The notes beneath the pieces are model-generated. The model saw nothing but the letters and a program-made list of their open reading frames with translations. It did no database searches and was not told the DNA's origin. Shown here piece after piece: positions 1-7,665 of a DNA stretch of 10,318 nucleotides. Positions within the stretch are counted from its first letter, which is position 1. Each line of letters begins with the position of its first letter. Source of the stretch: Candidatus Peregrinibacteria bacterium (GTDB lineage: Bacteria; Patescibacteriota; Gracilibacteria; UBA1369; JACRIC01); contig JACRIC010000030.1 of the NCBI GenBank assembly GCA_016235915.1, positions 1 through 10,318 on the forward strand, in the 5' to 3' direction. The position numbers and the translations under genes are program-made.

Positions 1-2951
1 ACCGCATAACACAGCAATCGATAATCGCAAAACTGGCACTTGTATCCGGGGGTCGCGGGAAAATCCGAATTCTGCATATTTTCCGCGATTTCGAGAAGTT
101 GCTCTTTCGTTTTTTCAAGGTCTTCGGCGGTTCTCGTTGCGGACACTTTCACGTTATCTTCCAAAAAATACAGACTGAGTTTCGATGCGGAGATTCCAAA
201 AATATCGCGGCACGCCAGCGCATAGATGGAAAGTTGCAGATCTTTTTTTAAATCGGACTCTTTTTTAAGACGGCCGGTTTTATAATCAATGACCTCATAG
301 CCGTCTTCGAGCTTGTCTATGCGGTCGATGCGGCCGGAAATGAGGAGAGGCTTTTCGTTTTTTGAAGGCAGAGATCCTTTTCCCGAAAGTTTCAACACAA
401 AATTGCACTCCAGAAAAGCAGGAATCACCCACGGATCCCTATTCTTTTCAAAATACGCTTCAAGCATCTCCCAGCCATTTTTCTTGCGAGTATTTTCATG
501 AGCGCGGCTCATGTATCCGGCTGAAATCCAGTGCTGTTCATAGAGCGTTTTCAGCGTCTCTTTCGTCGCTCCACTCGGATTTTGCATCAGAATTTTATAA
601 AAAGCGTTCAAGGTATTGTGCACGGATGAGCCAAAACTGGCGGCATGAGAAGGCGGTGTCGGCACACGCCAAAGATACCCCAATGTATACTTGTAAGGAC
701 ACGTCTGAAACATGTCGATTTGGCTGAAGGAAAGGCGGTTTATGTCATTGCGAGGAGCCCTGAGCGAGCGAAGCGAGTCGAAGGGCGACGAAGCAATCTC
801 ATCGCGCGTGCCGTCATTATCCCGAGCATTCCTCTGTATAGCCGGCAGAGATCCTTCGACTTCCTGTCGCGGTGCGACAGGAACGCTCAGGATGACAGTC
901 AGCCCCGTCTTCTCCATCTCCTCCACAAACACACTTTTTTTCCACTTTTTTTTGCCATGTTCGTAACAATCGCTCCATGCGAGAAAAAGTTTTTTTTGAG
1001 CCCGAGTGCACGCCACATAAAAAAGCCGCCGTTCTTCCTCCAGATGCACAGTATCTTCCGCCGGAAGCGCCTCAGGAAGAAGCTCTTCGGGAATTTTGAA
1101 AGGATCATTCTGTCGCCGCGACGGAAATCGCTCCTGCACCAAATTCACAATAAAAACATTCGGAAATTCTAAACCTTTACTCGCATGAATCGTCAAAATT
1201 TTCACCGCATCGCTGTCCACAGGTTGACTCCGAAATTCCTCTCTTGAAATGCCGCTTTCCTCAATCAGTTCCAGATATTCTTCAAAAGCAAAAATATTCG
1301 CCTCCGTTTTATCCGATTCAAATTTTTTAACCAAAGTGGAAAAATCGGAAAGTCCCTGAATTTTTTCCGCGCTGTCCGCGTCGCCGAGATCAATCAATCG
1401 CCTCAAATATCCGCTTTTTTCCAAAAAATTCCCCAGAACACGACTGACAGGAGACCTTCGACTCTCTTCCAAAAGTTCGGTCAAAAGACCTGAAATGAAT
1501 TTCCATTTTTCATTACCGCCAAGAGCAAGCGTGGTCTCCGAGCCTTTTTTCATCACGAGCGTAAAAAGTGGCGAAAAGTGTTTGCGCGCCTCGGACAGAA
1601 GCAAGGTAATTTCCACCATCGGAATGCCAAAAATCGGCATGGAAAGTATTCGAAACAGCGAAATATCATCCGCAGGGTTCGTGCAAATCCGAATTACCGC
1701 CCACATATCCTTAATTTCCTCGCGGGAAAGCAGATTTTCTGAACCTGAAAAACGGCAGGGAATTCCTCGCCTCCGACATTCCTCAATAAATGGCAGAGCA
1801 TGTTTATTCGCCCGAACCAGAATGGCAGAGTCGCTCCACAGAGCATCGGGAACATCGTGAAGCCGTTCGATTTCATTCACGACCTCCTCGGTCTCCTCTG
1901 CGGAATGTTCCGCATGGATCACGGTAATAGGGGAGAGGGGAGCCGTATTTTCAGCAATAAGATGTTTGGAAATGCCTTCTTTCACTTCAAGGCGGTTCGG
2001 GTTGTTATTTTGGATAATGGCATGGCTCGCGGTGAGAATGTTTTGGGAAGATCGGTAATTTCGCGTCAGCACGACCTTTTTCGCTCCGGGAAATATTTTT
2101 TCAAAGGAAAGAATATTCGCAAGCGACGCCCCCCGCCATTTATAAATTGATTGGTCATCATCGCCAACCACCGTGATATTTCGATGTTTTTTGGCGAGGA
2201 GTTCGACCAGCGAATTTTGAGCGAAATTCGTATCTTGAAATTCATCCACGAGAATGTATTGATAACGGTTTTGATACTCGGTCAGCGCGTCTTTTTTGTG
2301 TTGAAAAAGTTGCAGAACGTAAAAAGTGAGATCCTGAAAATCGAGGCAACCATTTTTAATTTTGAGATGTTGATAGGTTTGATAAAAATGCGCGATTTCA
2401 TTCATGAGAGTAAATTCTTCAGTATCTTTCGGAAGCCTTTTCGCAAAGGATTCAAAAGTTTCAGGAGAAATACATTCGTCTCGGAGCCGATCAATGTAAG
2501 CAAGAAGCGTTGAAATGAGTTTTGTGGGATTGCCGAGAGGACGGAGCTCCGAGAGTTCAAATTCAAAAAGATGATTTTTCACAAAAAGCCACTGCTCCGG
2601 AGCGGTGAGAATCCGATAATCCGTGGGAAGCCCGATCAGAAGGCCTTTTTCGCGAAGAATGGAATCGGAAAAACCGTGAAACGTGTAAATCGGAAGCTCC
2701 TCATATCCGAGAGGCAGGGCAAGGTCGAGGCGTTCTCTCATTTCAGAATTGGCCTTTTCGGTAAAAGTCAGCGCGAGGATGCTCTGCGGATTAACTTTTT
2801 TTTCTTGGATGAGGTACAAAATGCGGGAAGCCAAGACATGAGTTTTTCCAGTCCCCGCTCCAGCGATAATCAGGAGCGGCCCTTCGCCGTGAGTCACAGC
2901 TGAGAGCTGTTCGGGATTGAGGGTTGCCTCATTTCGGGAGTGAGTTTTCAT
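1..2951 (-). CDS. UvrD/PcrA-like SF1A helicase fused to a PD-(D/E)XK Fe-S nuclease (3' end outside window)
   Basis: ATP-dependent 3'-5' DNA helicase with a C-terminal RecB/AddB-type nuclease, expected to act in DNA repair or break processing. I read 983 uninterrupted residues from the ATG at 2949-2951; the frame is still open at base 1. Helicase motifs: Q motif (Q15), Walker A GAGTGKT (31-37), LTFTEKA (61-67), Walker B VDEFQDT (235-241), VGDDDQSIYKWRGA (262-275), LTRNYRS (295-301), TIHASKGLEF (587-596) and YVACTRA (645-651). Residues 685-737 are a linker encoded by inserted palindromic repeats. The nuclease domain starts near 740, with FGSSVH (773-778), GRIDRID (873-879), VIDYKTG (887-893) and QLSIYA (906-911). 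C751 plus C972, C975 and C981 (CxxCx5C) match the four cluster cysteines of AddB. PcrA/UvrD are usually about 720 residues, so the nuclease accounts for the extra length. I see no convincing Shine-Dalgarno. The helicase and nuclease calls are firm; the exact pathway is inferred. A RecB/AdnB-like partner role is possible, but no AddA-like or RecC-like gene is visible here. Confidence 0.93.
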   Translation of the reverse strand, partial: MKTHSRNEATLNPEQLSAVTHGEGPLLIIAGAGTGKTHVLASRILYLIQEKKVNPQSILALTFTEKANSEMRERLDLALPLGYEELPIYTFHGFSDSILREKGLLIGLPTDYRILTAPEQWLFVKNHLFEFELSELRPLGNPTKLISTLLAYIDRLRDECISPETFESFAKRLPKDTEEFTLMNEIAHFYQTYQHLKIKNGCLDFQDLTFYVLQLFQHKKDALTEYQNRYQYILVDEFQDTNFAQNSLVELLAKKHRNITVVGDDDQSIYKWRGASLANILSFEKIFPGAKKVVLTRNYRSSQNILTASHAIIQNNNPNRLEVKEGISKHLIAENTAPLSPITVIHAEHSAEETEEVVNEIERLHDVPDALWSDSAILVRANKHALPFIEECRRRGIPCRFSGSENLLSREEIKDMWAVIRICTNPADDISLFRILSMPIFGIPMVEITLLLSEARKHFSPLFTLVMKKGSETTLALGGNEKWKFISGLLTELLEESRRSPVSRVLGNFLEKSGYLRRLIDLGDADSAEKIQGLSDFSTLVKKFESDKTEANIFAFEEYLELIEESGISREEFRSQPVDSDAVKILTIHASKGLEFPNVFIVNLVQERFPSRRQNDPFKIPEELLPEALPAEDTVHLEEERRLFYVACTRAQKKLFLAWSDCYEHGKKKWKKSVFVEEMEKTGLTVILSVPVAPRQEVEGSLPAIQRNARDNDGTRDEIASSPFDSLRSLRAPRNDINRLSFSQIDMFQTCPYKYTLGYLWRVPTPPSHAASFGSSVHNTLNAFYKILMQNPSGATKETLKTLYEQHWISAGYMSRAHENTRKKNGWEMLEAYFEKNRDPWVIPAFLECNFVLKLSGKGSLPSKNEKPLLISGRIDRIDKLEDGYEVIDYKTGRLKKESDLKKDLQLSIYALACRDIFGISASKLSLYFLEDNVKVSATRTAEDLEKTKEQLLEIAENMQNSDFPATPGYKCQFCDYRLLCYA
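743..800. repeat. Palindromic repeat, type A (GTCATTGCGAG...AAGCAATC), inside the helicase CDS
   Basis: On the plus strand it begins TGTCATTGCGAGG and ends GACGAAGCAATCTC, with complementary ATTGC/GCAAT near the outer ends. The core (CCTGAGCGAGCGAAG, then GTCGAAGG) is shared in degenerate form with the other repeats of this window. It is read in frame by the helicase gene as residues 718-737 (EIASSPFDSL, then RSLRAPRNDI). Similar 'cattgcgagg' elements recur at 3381-3448, 4964-4983 and 5011-5053. No transposase is present, so it resembles a non-autonomous palindromic element. Confidence 0.85.
848..897. repeat. Palindromic repeat, type B (GATCCTTCGAC...CAGGATGACA), inside the helicase CDS
   Basis: It reads GAGATCCTTCGAC on the left and CTCAGGATGACA on the right. 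The centre (861-883) is a perfect 9-bp stem, TTCCTGTCG/CGACAGGAA, around a 5-base loop. It is read in frame by the helicase gene, giving about residues 685-701 (VILSVPVAPRQEVEG and flanks). A 47-base spacer (801-847) separates it from the type A copy, and the two form a 155-base composite. Confidence 0.85.
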
Positions 2952-2976: not shown

Positions 2977-3005
2977 TGTCATGGTGAGCTTGTCGAACCA
3001 TGACA
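2977..3005. repeat. Perfect palindromic hairpin, type C, between ylxR and the helicase gene
   Basis: Arms TGTCATGGT and ACCATGACA (9 bp, perfect) enclose an 11-base core, GAGCTTGTCGA, which shares the TTCGAC...GCTCA theme with the other repeats. It belongs to a run of three hairpins filling the 113-base gap between the ylxR stop and the helicase start. There is no U-tract, so it is not a classical intrinsic terminator. Confidence 0.8.
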
Positions 3006-3022
3006 ACGAAGAGCTCTTCATG

Positions 3023-3044
3023 AGACTCGCTATGCAACGAGTCT
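3023..3044. repeat. Inverted repeat (7-bp stem) in the ylxR-helicase gap
   Basis: AGACTCG and CGAGTCT form a perfect 7-bp stem around an 8-base loop. It sits between the palindromes at 2977-3005 and 3046-3076 and could be the degenerated centre of a larger element. Confidence 0.6.
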
Positions 3045-3045
3045 A

Positions 3046-3076
3046 TTGTCACTCTTCGAGAGCCTCAGGGTGACAA
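3046..3076. repeat. Palindromic repeat (TTGTCAC...GTGACAA) overlapping the ylxR 3' end
   Basis: Outer arms TTGTCAC and GTGACAA pair perfectly over 7 bp, and the core CTTCGAGAGCCTCAG is a variant of the CTTCGAC...GCTCAGG core. The minus-strand copy reads TTGTCACCCTGAGG; its TTG TCA CCC TGA supplies the last three sense codons and the stop of ylxR. Confidence 0.8.
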
Positions 3077-3340
3077 TTTTATCATCTGCACAAGCTTTTC
3101 CAAAATCACTTCCGTTTCGACCGGCACTTTCAGAAAATGCGAAACAATGCCTTTCTTTTTTCCTTGAAAAGCGCGCTCCACGCATTCTCGGTTTTTGCAC
3201 AAATACACTCCGCGTCCATTTTCACCGAGATCATCGGCAATTTTCACGATACCTTTTGGTGTTCGGATCATCCGAAAAAAATCACTCTTTTGCGCCTTTT
3301 TTCGGCAACTGACGCAGGTACGGAGGGGAATAAAGGCCAT
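3065..3340 (-). CDS. ylxR: YlxR-family RNA-binding protein (DUF448)
   Basis: Small nucleic-acid-binding protein of 91 residues, the usual size for the family. Family hallmarks are PLRTCVSCRKK (5-15), RMIRTPKG (23-30) and GRGVYLCKNREC (42-53), i.e. the RxCxxCR and GRGxYLC motifs, followed by a basic stretch (QGKKKG, 59-64). In Bacillus the YlxR protein has been linked to RNase P RNA and to transcription. The gene normally sits between nusA and infB; here it follows an S1 gene by 108 bases and is probably co-transcribed with it. I chose the ATG at 3340 because the family match begins at once. ATGs at 3373 and 3421 are in frame, but would add residues that look like translated spacer and repeat. 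No Shine-Dalgarno is seen; the leader is pyrimidine-rich. The last three residues (LSP) and the TGA come from a palindromic repeat. The family call is firm; the exact role is not known here. Confidence 0.88.
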   Translation of the reverse strand: MAFIPLRTCVSCRKKAQKSDFFRMIRTPKGIVKIADDLGENGRGVYLCKNRECVERAFQGKKKGIVSHFLKVPVETEVILEKLVQMIKLSP

Positions 3341-3380
3341 AAAGAAAGAGGAGAATAAACTTCCACGAAGCATCTTGGAA

Positions 3381-3448
3381 ATTGCTTCGCTTAGTCGAAA
3401 AGAAGAGAAGACGCACTCCACTTCGCTCCGTGCGTGCTCGCAATGACA
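3381..3448. repeat. Palindromic repeat, type A, between rpsA and ylxR
   Basis: On the minus strand it runs from TGTCATTGCGAGCACGCAC to GCGAAGCAAT, with terminal ATTGC/GCAAT arms and an internal ACGCAC/GTGCGT pair. It starts at the base right after the TAA stop of the S1 gene and fills most of the 108-base gap before ylxR. Its interior differs from the copies at 743-800 and 5011-5053, so only the ends are conserved. Confidence 0.8.
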
Positions 3449-4963: not shown

Positions 4964-4983
4964 TGTCATTGCGACGAAGCAAC
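4964..4983. repeat. Type A repeat half-copy downstream of clpC
   Basis: Plus strand TGTCATTGCGACGAAGCAAC: the two ends of a type A element with no interior, since ATTGC is followed directly by GACGAAGCAA. It is inverted relative to the copy at 5011-5053, so 4964-5053 is one large imperfect palindrome between clpC and rpsA. It could fold into a hairpin at the 3' end of the clpC mRNA. Confidence 0.7.
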
Positions 4984-5010
4984 CTACCTGACATCACCGG
5001 AGTTCGAAAA

Positions 5011-5053
5011 GATTGCTTCGTCAGCCGGCTAAAGCGGCTTCCTCGCAATGACA
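5011..5053. repeat. Type A palindromic repeat overlapping the clpC 3' end
   Basis: Minus strand: from TGTCATTGCGAGGAAGCCG to GACGAAGCAATC, with an inner AAGCCGCTTTAGCCGGCT segment holding an AGCCG/CGGCT pair. The GTC ATT GCG AGG AAG CCG CTT TAG within it is read by clpC as VIARKPL plus stop. Confidence 0.85.
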
Positions 5054-7665
5054 GAAGTTCCTTCCTTCTTCTCCAGCCCCACCTCCTCCTTCTTCTTCAC
5101 AATCCTCACCGTATCTCCATCAGCAAATTTCCCTTCCAGCAAGCCCTGCGTCAAGGGATCTTCCACCATGTCTTGAATAGTTCGACGCACCGGCCGCGCT
5201 CCATAATCCGGGTCATAGCTTTTCTCAGCAAGAATCTCAAGCGCCCCGTCCGTGAGCTCCAGTGTAATTTTTTTCGTGATCAACCGTTCGGAAAGCATGG
5301 CCACATGAAGTTTGACAATATCTTTGATATTTTCATGAGTGAGCGGTTGAAAGACGATCACTTTATCGATTCGGTTTAAAAATTCCGGACGAAAACACTC
5401 CTTGAGTTCCGCCAAAATTTCCTCTTTTTTTTCATCAAATTCTTCTTCCGCTTTTTTCAATTCATCAGTGGCAAGGTTAAATCCGATCCGCGAAGCTTTT
5501 TTCGTGAGCTGATCTGCCCCAATATTCGAGGTCATAATAATAATGGTATTTCGGAAATCAACTCGCCGCCCCTTCGCATCCGTGAGATGTCCATCTTCAA
5601 GAATTTGCAAAAGGAGATTAAAAACATCGGGATGCGCTTTTTCAATTTCATCAAATAAAATGACCGCGTAGGGCTTTCGGCGCACCGCCTCCGTGAGTTG
5701 CCCACCTTCCTCATACCCAACATATCCAGCAGTTGCCCCTACAAGGCGAGAGGTATTGTGCCGTTCCATAAATTCACTCATATCGATTTTAATGAGCGCG
5801 TCTTTATCATTGTAAACTTCTCGAGCGATGGTTTTCACGAGCTCGGTTTTTCCCACGCCCGTCGGCCCCATGAAAATAAAAGATCCGATTGGCCGATTGG
5901 CATCCGCAATTCCAGCTCGAGATCTTCGTATGGCCTGCGCCACGATTTTTATGGCGTCACCTTGTCCCACAATAGATTTTTTCAGATTATCTTCAAGATG
6001 AATGAGGCGCTCGACGTCGTCTTTCAAAAGTCTCATAACAGGAACACCGGTCATGGTAGCCACGACATGGGCGATGTCATCTTCGCCGAGCTTTGCACGT
6101 TTTTCGCGTGGAATCTTCACAGTCCGCGAAGCCTCCAATTTTTCCAAAATAGCCAACTCTTGCGCACGAATCTCTGCCGCATATTCGTAATTTTGCTCTG
6201 AAACGGCATCTTCTTTTTTCTTGATAAGCTTATTGAGTTCTTTTTGGAACTTTTTAACCGACGAATCATTCTTTTGGGATTTCATGCCTTTGAGCGCCGC
6301 GGCTTCATCCAGAATATCAATGGCTTTATCAGGCAAATATCGATCCATGATATAGCGCTTGGAAAGACCGACCGCAGAAGTAAGGGCATTATCCTGAATA
6401 AGAAGGTTGTGATGATCCTCAAACGATGCTTTCAACCCTTTCAGAATCGCGATACTGTCAGATTCCGAAGGCTCATAAACCATCACCGGCTGAAACCGTC
6501 GTTCAAGCGCGGCATCATGTTCCACATATTTTCGATATTCATTCGTGGTCGTGGCGCCGATCATCTGGATTTTACCGCAAGAAAGCGCGGGTTTCAGAAT
6601 ATTGGCGGCATCCAGACTTCCCTCGGCCGATCCCGCTCCAATAACCGTATGCAATTCGTCAATAAAAAGAATCACATTGGAAAGTTCGGCCGCTTCATCG
6701 ATAACCTGTTTGAGTCGCTCCTCAAATTCACCGCGGTACTTTGTGCCGGCCACGAGCGAACCCATGGATATCGAAAGGATTTTTTTATCAAGCATGTTAT
6801 CAGGAACTCTCTCCTGAACAATCGCATGAACCAGCCCTTCCACCACCGCAGTTTTTCCCACTCCCGGTTCGCCGATAAGAACAGGGTTATTCTTTGTTTT
6901 TCGCTGAAGAATGCTGATAGTGCGTTCGATTTCTTTTTCTCGGCCAATAATCGGATCCGTCTTTCCATCGCGGCATTCTTTAATAAGGTCTGTTGAAAAA
7001 TAATCGAGCGCCGGTGTTTTGACATGTTTCGCCGTTGCGGTGCGTGCTCCACCGGGAAAACCATCCCCATTGTCTTTATGCCGAAAACCGTCTTGAAAAT
7101 TCCCGCCTTTTTCGCCGGCTAGCACTCCTTGAAGGCCATTTAAAAGCGCCTCAATCGGATTCATCATATGTCCCATTTGACCAGACATTCCTCCTGGAAT
7201 CTTCATGGGATTTTCAAAAATTTTCAGAACCTCGCGCTCCACATCTTTATTATTAATTTTCATGTTTTCCAAAATAACAGTGGCCGCGGTATTTTCCTGC
7301 TTCACAAGACCGATGAGCAGGTGCTCCGTCCCGACAAACATGTGTTTATAATCATGAGCGCATTTCACCGCGTCTTCGATAACTTTTTTCGCGAAACCGC
7401 TGAGTCCCACGGAAGGCGCTTTTTTGATTCCCTGCGGGGCGGTGGTCCGACCGACGGTTTTCAGAACAAGATTGACATTATCAAGCGAAACGCCGAAATT
7501 ATGGAGAATGGCCGCGCCAAGCGAATTTTGTTGTCTTATTATCCCCAGAAGCACATTCTCGGTGCCGATATAGGTGGTTTTTGTTTGTCGTTCAATGTCC
7601 TGTGCTACGAGGAGGGCTTGTTTCGCTTCTTTCGTGAATTTTTCGAATTTGTTTTGTGGATCCAT
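5029..7665 (-). CDS. clpC: ATP-dependent Clp protease ATP-binding subunit ClpC
   Basis: Cytoplasmic AAA+ unfoldase that feeds proteins to the ClpP peptidase; 878 residues. Order: Clp-N double repeat (about 1-150), a Gly/Met-rich linker (155-208), AAA ring 1 with Walker A GEPGVGKT (265-272) and Walker B LFIDE (333-337), a short middle region with a UVR-like motif (about 470-510), AAA ring 2 with Walker A GPTGVGKT (600-607) and Walker B LFDE (670-673), the RPEFLNR arginine-finger region (759-765), and GARPVRR sensor 2 (822-828). The short UVR middle domain marks ClpC rather than ClpB. SRIGF (725-729) is the ClpP-docking loop, which ClpB lacks. The start ATG at 7665 fits the Clp-N domain start; no Shine-Dalgarno is visible. 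Expression is probably under HrcA through the CIRCE box upstream. The last eight residues (SVIARKPL) and the stop derive almost wholly from a palindromic repeat. No clpP or adaptor gene is in the window. Confidence 0.95.
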   Translation of the reverse strand: MDPQNKFEKFTKEAKQALLVAQDIERQTKTTYIGTENVLLGIIRQQNSLGAAILHNFGVSLDNVNLVLKTVGRTTAPQGIKKAPSVGLSGFAKKVIEDAVKCAHDYKHMFVGTEHLLIGLVKQENTAATVILENMKINNKDVEREVLKIFENPMKIPGGMSGQMGHMMNPIEALLNGLQGVLAGEKGGNFQDGFRHKDNGDGFPGGARTATAKHVKTPALDYFSTDLIKECRDGKTDPIIGREKEIERTISILQRKTKNNPVLIGEPGVGKTAVVEGLVHAIVQERVPDNMLDKKILSISMGSLVAGTKYRGEFEERLKQVIDEAAELSNVILFIDELHTVIGAGSAEGSLDAANILKPALSCGKIQMIGATTTNEYRKYVEHDAALERRFQPVMVYEPSESDSIAILKGLKASFEDHHNLLIQDNALTSAVGLSKRYIMDRYLPDKAIDILDEAAALKGMKSQKNDSSVKKFQKELNKLIKKKEDAVSEQNYEYAAEIRAQELAILEKLEASRTVKIPREKRAKLGEDDIAHVVATMTGVPVMRLLKDDVERLIHLEDNLKKSIVGQGDAIKIVAQAIRRSRAGIADANRPIGSFIFMGPTGVGKTELVKTIAREVYNDKDALIKIDMSEFMERHNTSRLVGATAGYVGYEEGGQLTEAVRRKPYAVILFDEIEKAHPDVFNLLLQILEDGHLTDAKGRRVDFRNTIIIMTSNIGADQLTKKASRIGFNLATDELKKAEEEFDEKKEEILAELKECFRPEFLNRIDKVIVFQPLTHENIKDIVKLHVAMLSERLITKKITLELTDGALEILAEKSYDPDYGARPVRRTIQDMVEDPLTQGLLEGKFADGDTVRIVKKKEEVGLEKKEGTSVIARKPL

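Follow-up and report, generated by a model that had tools for sequence, protein, structure and literature searches.

A palindromic repeat pair read in frame in the inter-domain linker of a helicase-nuclease from a Candidatus Peregrinibacteria genome

The DNA analysed here, referred to as the window, is a 10,318-nucleotide stretch covering positions 1 to 10,318 of contig JACRIC010000030.1 (assembly GCA_016235915.1, Candidatus Peregrinibacteria bacterium). At its left end lies the gene of a helicase-nuclease, whose open reading frame (ORF) starts at 2951 and encodes 983 amino acids in the window, with its 3' end beyond the left window edge. Pfam assigns the domains UvrD-helicase to residues 11-287, UvrD_C to 293-660 and PDDEXK_1 to 739-981. 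Between the last two lies a composite palindrome made of two repeat units, A and B, which are inverted relative to each other with both TGTC tags outward (Table 1). The initial annotation had described this pair, its in-frame reading as part of the protein and its position between helicase core and nuclease, and each of these points is borne out: the motif scan places the units on opposite strands, 49 nt apart (47 by the ends used earlier), the helicase frame on the minus strand passes through 743-897 without a stop, codon arithmetic yields residues 685-737, and these residues fall between the end of UvrD_C and the start of PDDEXK_1.

Table 1. Helicase-nuclease gene and repeat units in the window.
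Feature	Position	Strand	Basis
Helicase-nuclease ORF (UvrD/PcrA-type helicase and PD-(D/E)XK nuclease domain, four invariant Cys)	3-2951	-	ORF, Pfam, alignment, fold
Composite palindrome, in frame as residues 685-737, inter-domain linker	743-897	-	motif scan, linker alignment, RNA fold, pLDDT (predicted local distance difference test)
Unit A (TGTCATTGCGAG...GACGAAGCAATCT), stem ATTGC/GCAAT, TGTC tag at 743	743-799	+	motif scan
Unit A tail (CATCGCGCGTGCCGTCATT)	800-818	+	by eye from loci L005, L006, L009, L011
Spacer between units	819-848	.	weak second own-genome match only
Unit B (TGTCATCCTGAGC...AGTCGAAGGATCT), stem ATCCT/AGGAT, inner hairpin CTGTCGC...GCGACAG, TGTC tag at 897	849-897	-	
Second pair of same-family units, stems ATGGT and ACCCT, tags outward	2977-3075	.	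motif scan, neighbour-pair analysis
Lone A-type half (5' motif)	3437-3448	-	motif scan
A-unit pair, tags outward, overlapping 3' end of clpC-like gene	4964-5053	.	fold, motif scan

All residues found invariant when 50 sequences, this one among them, were aligned are retained in the helicase-nuclease, including Cys 751, 972, 975 and 981 of the nuclease domain, which may hold an Fe-S cluster, as in AddB-type nucleases. In the AlphaFold2 model, the motor matches PcrA and UvrD, and AdnB chains align over most of its length; compared with AdnB, AddAB and PcrA/UvrD, the protein differs in its linker, which is repeat-derived. The pLDDT falls below 50 solely at residues 1-4 and 695-729. Translation of the repeat is predicted from the open frame and the intact flanking domains, and the repeat probably serves as a flexible joint between the two working parts of the enzyme. 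The closest named homologue among the matches listed is from Candidatus Peregrinibacteria and is 52 percent identical; a scan of the genome contigs for helicase relatives gave no match.

As RNA, the 155 nt of 743-897 form one hairpin, in which the two ends of the composite pair with each other (-66.4 kcal/mol, z -3.38, none of 200 shuffles as stable). Unit B is also more stable than its shuffles as single-stranded DNA (849-899; z -2.84, 3 of 200 shuffles as good); a stable DNA hairpin for unit A alone (743-802, single-stranded) is not supported, with a z of 0.65 and 150 of 200 shuffles as good. The closest copies of unit B are at C91:116, C1:10816 and C44:92 (own-genome BLAST). By eye, the first part of the unit A tail recurs after other A units, and the insert in the gene of PrmC, described below, has a near copy. 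The spacer has a weak second match in the genome (C73:377-402, E 0.09; BLAST) and may be a decayed third unit or perhaps a remnant of the native linker.

Further genomic copies, on which the initial annotation had made its reading depend, are numerous, beyond what chance would give, in the host genome (G000), a fragmented bin of 683 kb in 120 contigs. The 157-nt query gave 75 own-genome BLAST matches at E up to 10, a count that takes in the query's own locus and, among the weak matches, many short fragments. For the 13-nt A 3' motif, the scan matched 72 places at up to two mismatches (30 exact), against 9 for the reversed control, and the B 5' motif matched 84 (9 exact), against 3 for the control. 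The 260 kb fetched around the motif places contain 148 motif clusters, of which 95 were used because they hold either two or more matches or one that has no more than a single mismatch; the other 53, each a single two-mismatch match, were left out. On C91, C44, C72, C26, C33, C65 and C39, many units are only some hundreds of bases away from a contig end; the assembly probably breaks at such units, so the true copy number may be higher.

The host units follow a common plan, TGTC - 5-nt stem - GAG - inner part - CGA(A) - complementary stem - CT. A search pattern that constrains just one of the five stem positions yields 74 distinct units, in which 273 of the 296 possible stem pairs are complementary (0.922), compared with a mean of 0.656 and a maximum of 0.757 in 1000 reshuffles of the 3' halves. 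This test is inflated by related copies; with each of the 24 stem combinations counted once, the fraction is 0.802 against 0.591 (maximum 0.74, 2000 reshuffles). For 127 units of other named genomes, which were chosen for type A and are nearly uniform, it is 0.969 against 0.910 (maximum 0.929). A 3' register unable to match B-type units gave no clear signal (0.866 against a mean of 0.825 and a maximum of 0.866). The matched stem exchanges are ATTGC/GCAAT, ATCCT/AGGAT, ATGGT/ACCAT, ACCCT/AGGGT and ATTCT/AGAAT. Types A and B of the initial annotation are thus both palindromic repeats, as it had stated, but by covariation they are stem variants of one high-copy family, not two.

The inner part of the unit can often fold back on itself (in 37 host units, the longest stem averages 4.43, compared with 3.09 in shuffled sequences); in the named genomes, its outer contiguous stems are weakly above the shuffled level (mean 1.5 against 0.34, at least 4 bp in 4 of 26). 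Neighbouring units within 120 nt are arranged tags-outward in 17 of 20 pairs, in tandem in three and tags-inward in none. On average, 4.18 of the 6 frames are free of stops in A units, compared with 3.33 after shuffling that keeps base composition only (0 of 500 shuffles; 50 units, including one overlapping pair).

Copies in frame are found in many other genes of the host. A spanning ORF was defined as a stop-to-stop ORF of at least 100 amino acids with 30 amino acids on either side of the cluster, and the counts cover units open in frame, leaving out frame-shifting insertions (pseudogenes). By this definition, 29 of the 95 clusters sit within a spanning ORF, 18 of them in 16 recognisable genes: those of the helicase-nuclease, PrmC, an ABC exporter, TilS, Elp3, ValS, TGT, MurC, UDP-glucose dehydrogenase, a NadB-like flavoprotein, IleS, an O-antigen ligase (three sites), a FemAB protein, PriA, MnmA and a class IV aminotransferase. 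Names such as TilS, Elp3, NadB and IleS were assigned from sequence and Pfam matches; for the sites in IleS and MnmA and the third one in the ligase, the matches have two mismatches, although the general pattern detects the IleS site as well. Thirteen of the 16 genes have the unit within a domain or flanked by recognised stretches (PrmC by PDB alignment), whereas in TilS, Elp3 and the O-antigen ligase a Pfam domain is present on just one side of it. The 11 clusters not accepted are in short, terminal or unrecognised ORFs or are weak motif matches (for example, L003 and L147); among them is L123, where the unit precedes the Pfam domain of a sortase. Seven of the 16 genes (PrmC, TilS, Elp3, ValS, IleS, TGT and MnmA) belong to translation or tRNA modification.

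In all five proteins compared with PDB sequences, the region of the unit is unmatched: 31 residues stand opposite 4 in PrmC (insert 244-274), 37 opposite 2 in ValS (400-436), about 13 opposite 0 in TGT, 104 opposite 1 in UDP-glucose dehydrogenase (138-241) and 60 opposite 15 in MurC (302-361), these stretches including some native residues. In UDP-glucose dehydrogenase (L114, 1501-1798), approximately 100 extra residues come from several units in direct and inverted order.

The linker of the helicase-nuclease was compared with those of its homologues between the landmarks K-x-S-x-F and LS[FY], using the best 120 of 7999 matches, that is, 119 aligned sequences besides the window's own. According to the initial annotation, most homologues should lack the 53 residues, and whether any conserves them had been fixed beforehand as the point to be checked. 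None of the 119 linkers carries any of the 19 repeat-derived peptide signatures tried; nine have one or two 4-residue words in common with the window linker, which were taken as chance. Of the two outcomes that would have refuted the initial annotation, conservation of these residues and absence of further copies, neither was found. The homologues are, however, not simply shorter. Their unrelated linkers measure 38-84 residues (median 45, at least 64 in 3 of 119), compared with 64 in the window protein, of which just 11 fall outside residues 685-737, so the protein was not simply extended by 53. Judged by this alignment, either the repeat would have displaced the native linker or the lineage would have had an unusually short one. 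The linker DNA of relatives, located in 24 of 29, contains no units; a single 13-nt motif match with two mismatches (L053) lies at the edge and has no second half.

The family extends well beyond this genome. Both halves of the A unit are found exactly in at least 118 stretches of a collection of species-representative genomes, and the 80 titles among the matches listed include Chloroflexi, Planctomycetes, Omnitrophota, Bacteroidetes, Patescibacteria, Desulfobacteraceae, Zixibacteria and others. Among 379 Patescibacteria genomes, 56 have a two-half match, with up to 20 per genome (15 in the host, which is included), and the table for the reversed control across the same genomes holds no match. 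In 79 genomes of the same family and order, counts of the 13-nt motif at one mismatch are near the control level except in the host (41) and in G034 (12 against 1 in the control), G042 (7 against 0) and G063 (7 against 1).

In nine other Patescibacteria, a sample from which the richest genome (G194) was left out, 17 of 66 A units lie within a spanning ORF of at least 100 amino acids. All 17 ORFs were searched against Pfam and 12 gave a match; the other five are short and may be spurious. The unit is inside a domain or between two in nine cases (LeuS editing domain, ATP synthase gamma, M16 peptidase, O-antigen ligase, MnmA, PrmC, tetrapyrrole-type methylase, CarA and YmdB) and has a domain on one side in three (COX1, zinc dehydrogenase and a GIY-YIG protein). 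Named genomes contributed 123 units; after removal of 28 close to the end of their locus, the remaining 95 gave 14 rows with a spanning ORF of at least 150 amino acids, two of which represent the same ORF. Three of these ORFs were put to Pfam: in one the unit proved to be inside HypF, in another it separates two phosphomannomutase domains, and in the third it adjoins a PMT_2 domain. PrmC (L006/L324), MnmA (L153/L304) and the O-antigen ligase (L124/L303) each have an in-frame unit in two Patescibacteria of different families, the pairs being drawn from the host and G186 or G424. The insertion places clearly differ between the two genomes for PrmC and MnmA, which suggests independent hits on the same gene families.

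A candidate for the mover of such elements is the REP-associated tyrosine transposase (RAYT; REP, repetitive extragenic palindrome). The one RAYT-like ORF of the host genome (L333 3-299, minus strand, on C73) is cut by the contig end, and it scores 23.2 bits with PF01797 (cut-off 23) and 58.8 bits with NF047646 (cut-off 80). At E up to 0.001, RAYT-like genes are present in 17 of 21 element-rich genomes and in 7 of the 20 compared with them (Fisher p 0.004; 16 of 20 against 7 of 20 and p 0.0095 without the host), the genomes being hand-picked from the survey of 379 and the statistics ignoring relatedness. The curated cut-off for RAYT is exceeded in just 3 of the 41 genomes.

We consider it likely that 743-897 is a composite copy, made of two outward-tagged units and remnants, of a high-copy non-autonomous palindromic element that is tolerated as a flexible linker and represents selfish or neutral DNA, not an adaptation. 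The observations behind this reading are the genome-wide repetition, the stem covariation, the mostly tags-outward neighbours, the in-frame copies in many conserved genes and the open helicase frame. The element would have spread through this Peregrinibacteria-like genome, copied in trans by a transposase or a hairpin-dependent process. Copies landing in frame in loops or inter-domain linkers would survive, a short disordered peptide being tolerated there, and the survivors in genes would have been filtered for open reading and for a site that tolerates them. Here, in the helicase-nuclease, it would be translated as a flexible 53-residue tether from motor to nuclease, with most of the original, unconserved linker displaced, an action resembling that of Rickettsia palindromic elements and intragenic REPs.

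Several results weigh against the element being an inert, mobile insert. Residues 685-689, encoded by the first codons of the element, are modelled as a strand in a block averaging a pLDDT of 94, so the insert does not look inert throughout. B units are no more open than their shuffles (3.22 against 3.40 frames, with 412 of 500 shuffles at least as open; 18 units), so stop avoidance is not general. G001, a member of the same family and the nearest relative among the genomes compared, lacks the A 3' motif when one mismatch is allowed, and its helicase linker contains no unit; as the two are only approximately 56 percent identical, an exact empty site or a target duplication is not definable. 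Finally, no unit lies near any of 20 RAYT-like loci, for which 1.3-2.1 kb each were fetched, so RAYT is no more than a candidate mover.

Among the alternatives, domestication of the insert survives best, the tether or the strong mRNA hairpin being useful, for example, for motor-nuclease reach or for ribosome pausing between domains. An insert that displaced most of the native linker rather than merely adding to it, a messenger forming one strong hairpin and an ordered strand at the first residues of the insert would all suit such a role; we nevertheless regard it as unlikely, because family members turn up in numerous proteins that have nothing in common, at sites equally unconnected, the model of the insert is for the most part of low confidence and no aligned homologue conserves it. 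It is still less probable that the gene is broken or split, with the palindrome blocking expression so that the two activities are produced separately or are lost, as in a pseudogene in progress. The mRNA hairpin is stable and, as is generally known, inserts can precede decay, but the frame is open over 983 amino acids, every invariant residue of the 50-sequence alignment is in place and the same pattern occurs in fifteen other recognisable genes of the genome. An assembly chimera at the repeat is scarcely credible: although the bin is fragmented and several copies are near contig ends (for example, C91:116, C44:92 and C65:8336 of 8512), the two flanks share a frame and code for the two parts of a single protein family, with single-chain homologues of approximately 50 percent identity that span 97-100 percent of the query (one exception among the 119 listed), and the in-frame pattern recurs in other genes and other genomes.

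Palindromes inserted in frame are best known from Rickettsia, where protein-coding ones were reportedly described by Ogata and colleagues, and intragenic REPs occur in a range of other species. Taken as a tolerated palindromic insert, the element at 743-897 can be set beside these by description, not by sequence. Rickettsia palindromic elements are short palindromes in many copies, in frame within conserved protein genes (PMC2229807, PMC3733652). They are reported from 19 reading frames, and a gmk gene with an insert still gives an active enzyme, with altered affinity (Delihas 2007, PMC2229807). The elements described here are likewise short, palindromic, of high copy number and open in frame, with predicted translation, in the 16 recognisable host genes; they differ in that the host is a Patescibacterium, not Rickettsia, and in that the units are TGTC-tagged, have exchangeable stems and are often composite. 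The likeness drawn in the initial annotation is one of behaviour rather than of established membership in a named family.

REPs tagged with C/TGTC are described from five phyla, and repeats of both the GTAG and the CGTC type also lie inside genes, many of these serving replication and repair, among them those of a UvrD/REP helicase and RecBCD (Di Nocera et al. 2013, PMC3733652). The family described here shares with the CGTC-tagged REPs the terminal tag (TGTC, in some units CGTC), a stem usually starting with AT, the dominance of dimers with tags outside (17 of 20 neighbouring pairs here), the lack of a known dedicated transposase, and intragenic copies in such helicase and nuclease genes. The CGTC-tagged REPs have stems of 8-9 bp with AT in the first and second position, loops mostly of 4-5 nt and tails mostly CCA. 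Here, stems are 5 bp, the commonest being ATTGC, ATCCT, ATGGT and ACCCT (three of the four begin with AT), followed by the GAG/CGA(A) box; the inner part is very variable in length and often a hairpin; the tail, by eye, is mostly CTC; the units are mostly longer than 20-40 bp; and the host phylum is outside the five listed. With the GTAG-tagged REPs accompanied by RAYT (PMC3733652), the family shares its palindromic, high-copy and paired nature; it differs in having no GTAG tag and, among the 20 RAYT-like loci examined, none flanked by the repeat. Compared with miniature inverted-repeat transposable elements, tags and stems are inverted here at both ends, and a target-site duplication is not definable without a close empty site.

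A literature search of open-licence papers found no account of such elements in Patescibacteria. The helicase-nuclease is a new instance of a known phenomenon, and, within the reach of that search, the Patescibacteria family with exchangeable stems is a variant not described before. Tentatively, protein-coding palindromes may be a general force in Patescibacteria, with one TGTC-tagged hairpin family of exchangeable stems, present in many phyla, repeatedly and independently entering the same essential-enzyme gene families in frame and supplying new linkers and loops. If this is true, the enzymes affected in these reduced genomes include ATP synthase gamma, tRNA synthetases, tRNA-modifying enzymes and CarA. 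The inserts in widely conserved enzymes form a natural set in which to ask how selfish DNA gives rise to new protein segments, which enzyme moves the hairpins and whether small genomes tolerate or exploit them. For annotation, peptides such as VIARS...DEAIS or EIASS...PRND inside such proteins should be recognised as repeat-derived.

Units of the family also meet gene ends elsewhere in the window. The stop codon of a putative YlxR-like ORF at 3065-3421 lies inside the unit end TGTCACCCTGAGG (3063-3075, minus strand), and the element thus seems to supply the last residues of the ORF and its stop. The clpC-like gene terminates within an A unit (5029-5060, minus strand), its last residues VIARKPL and the TAG stop being repeat-derived.

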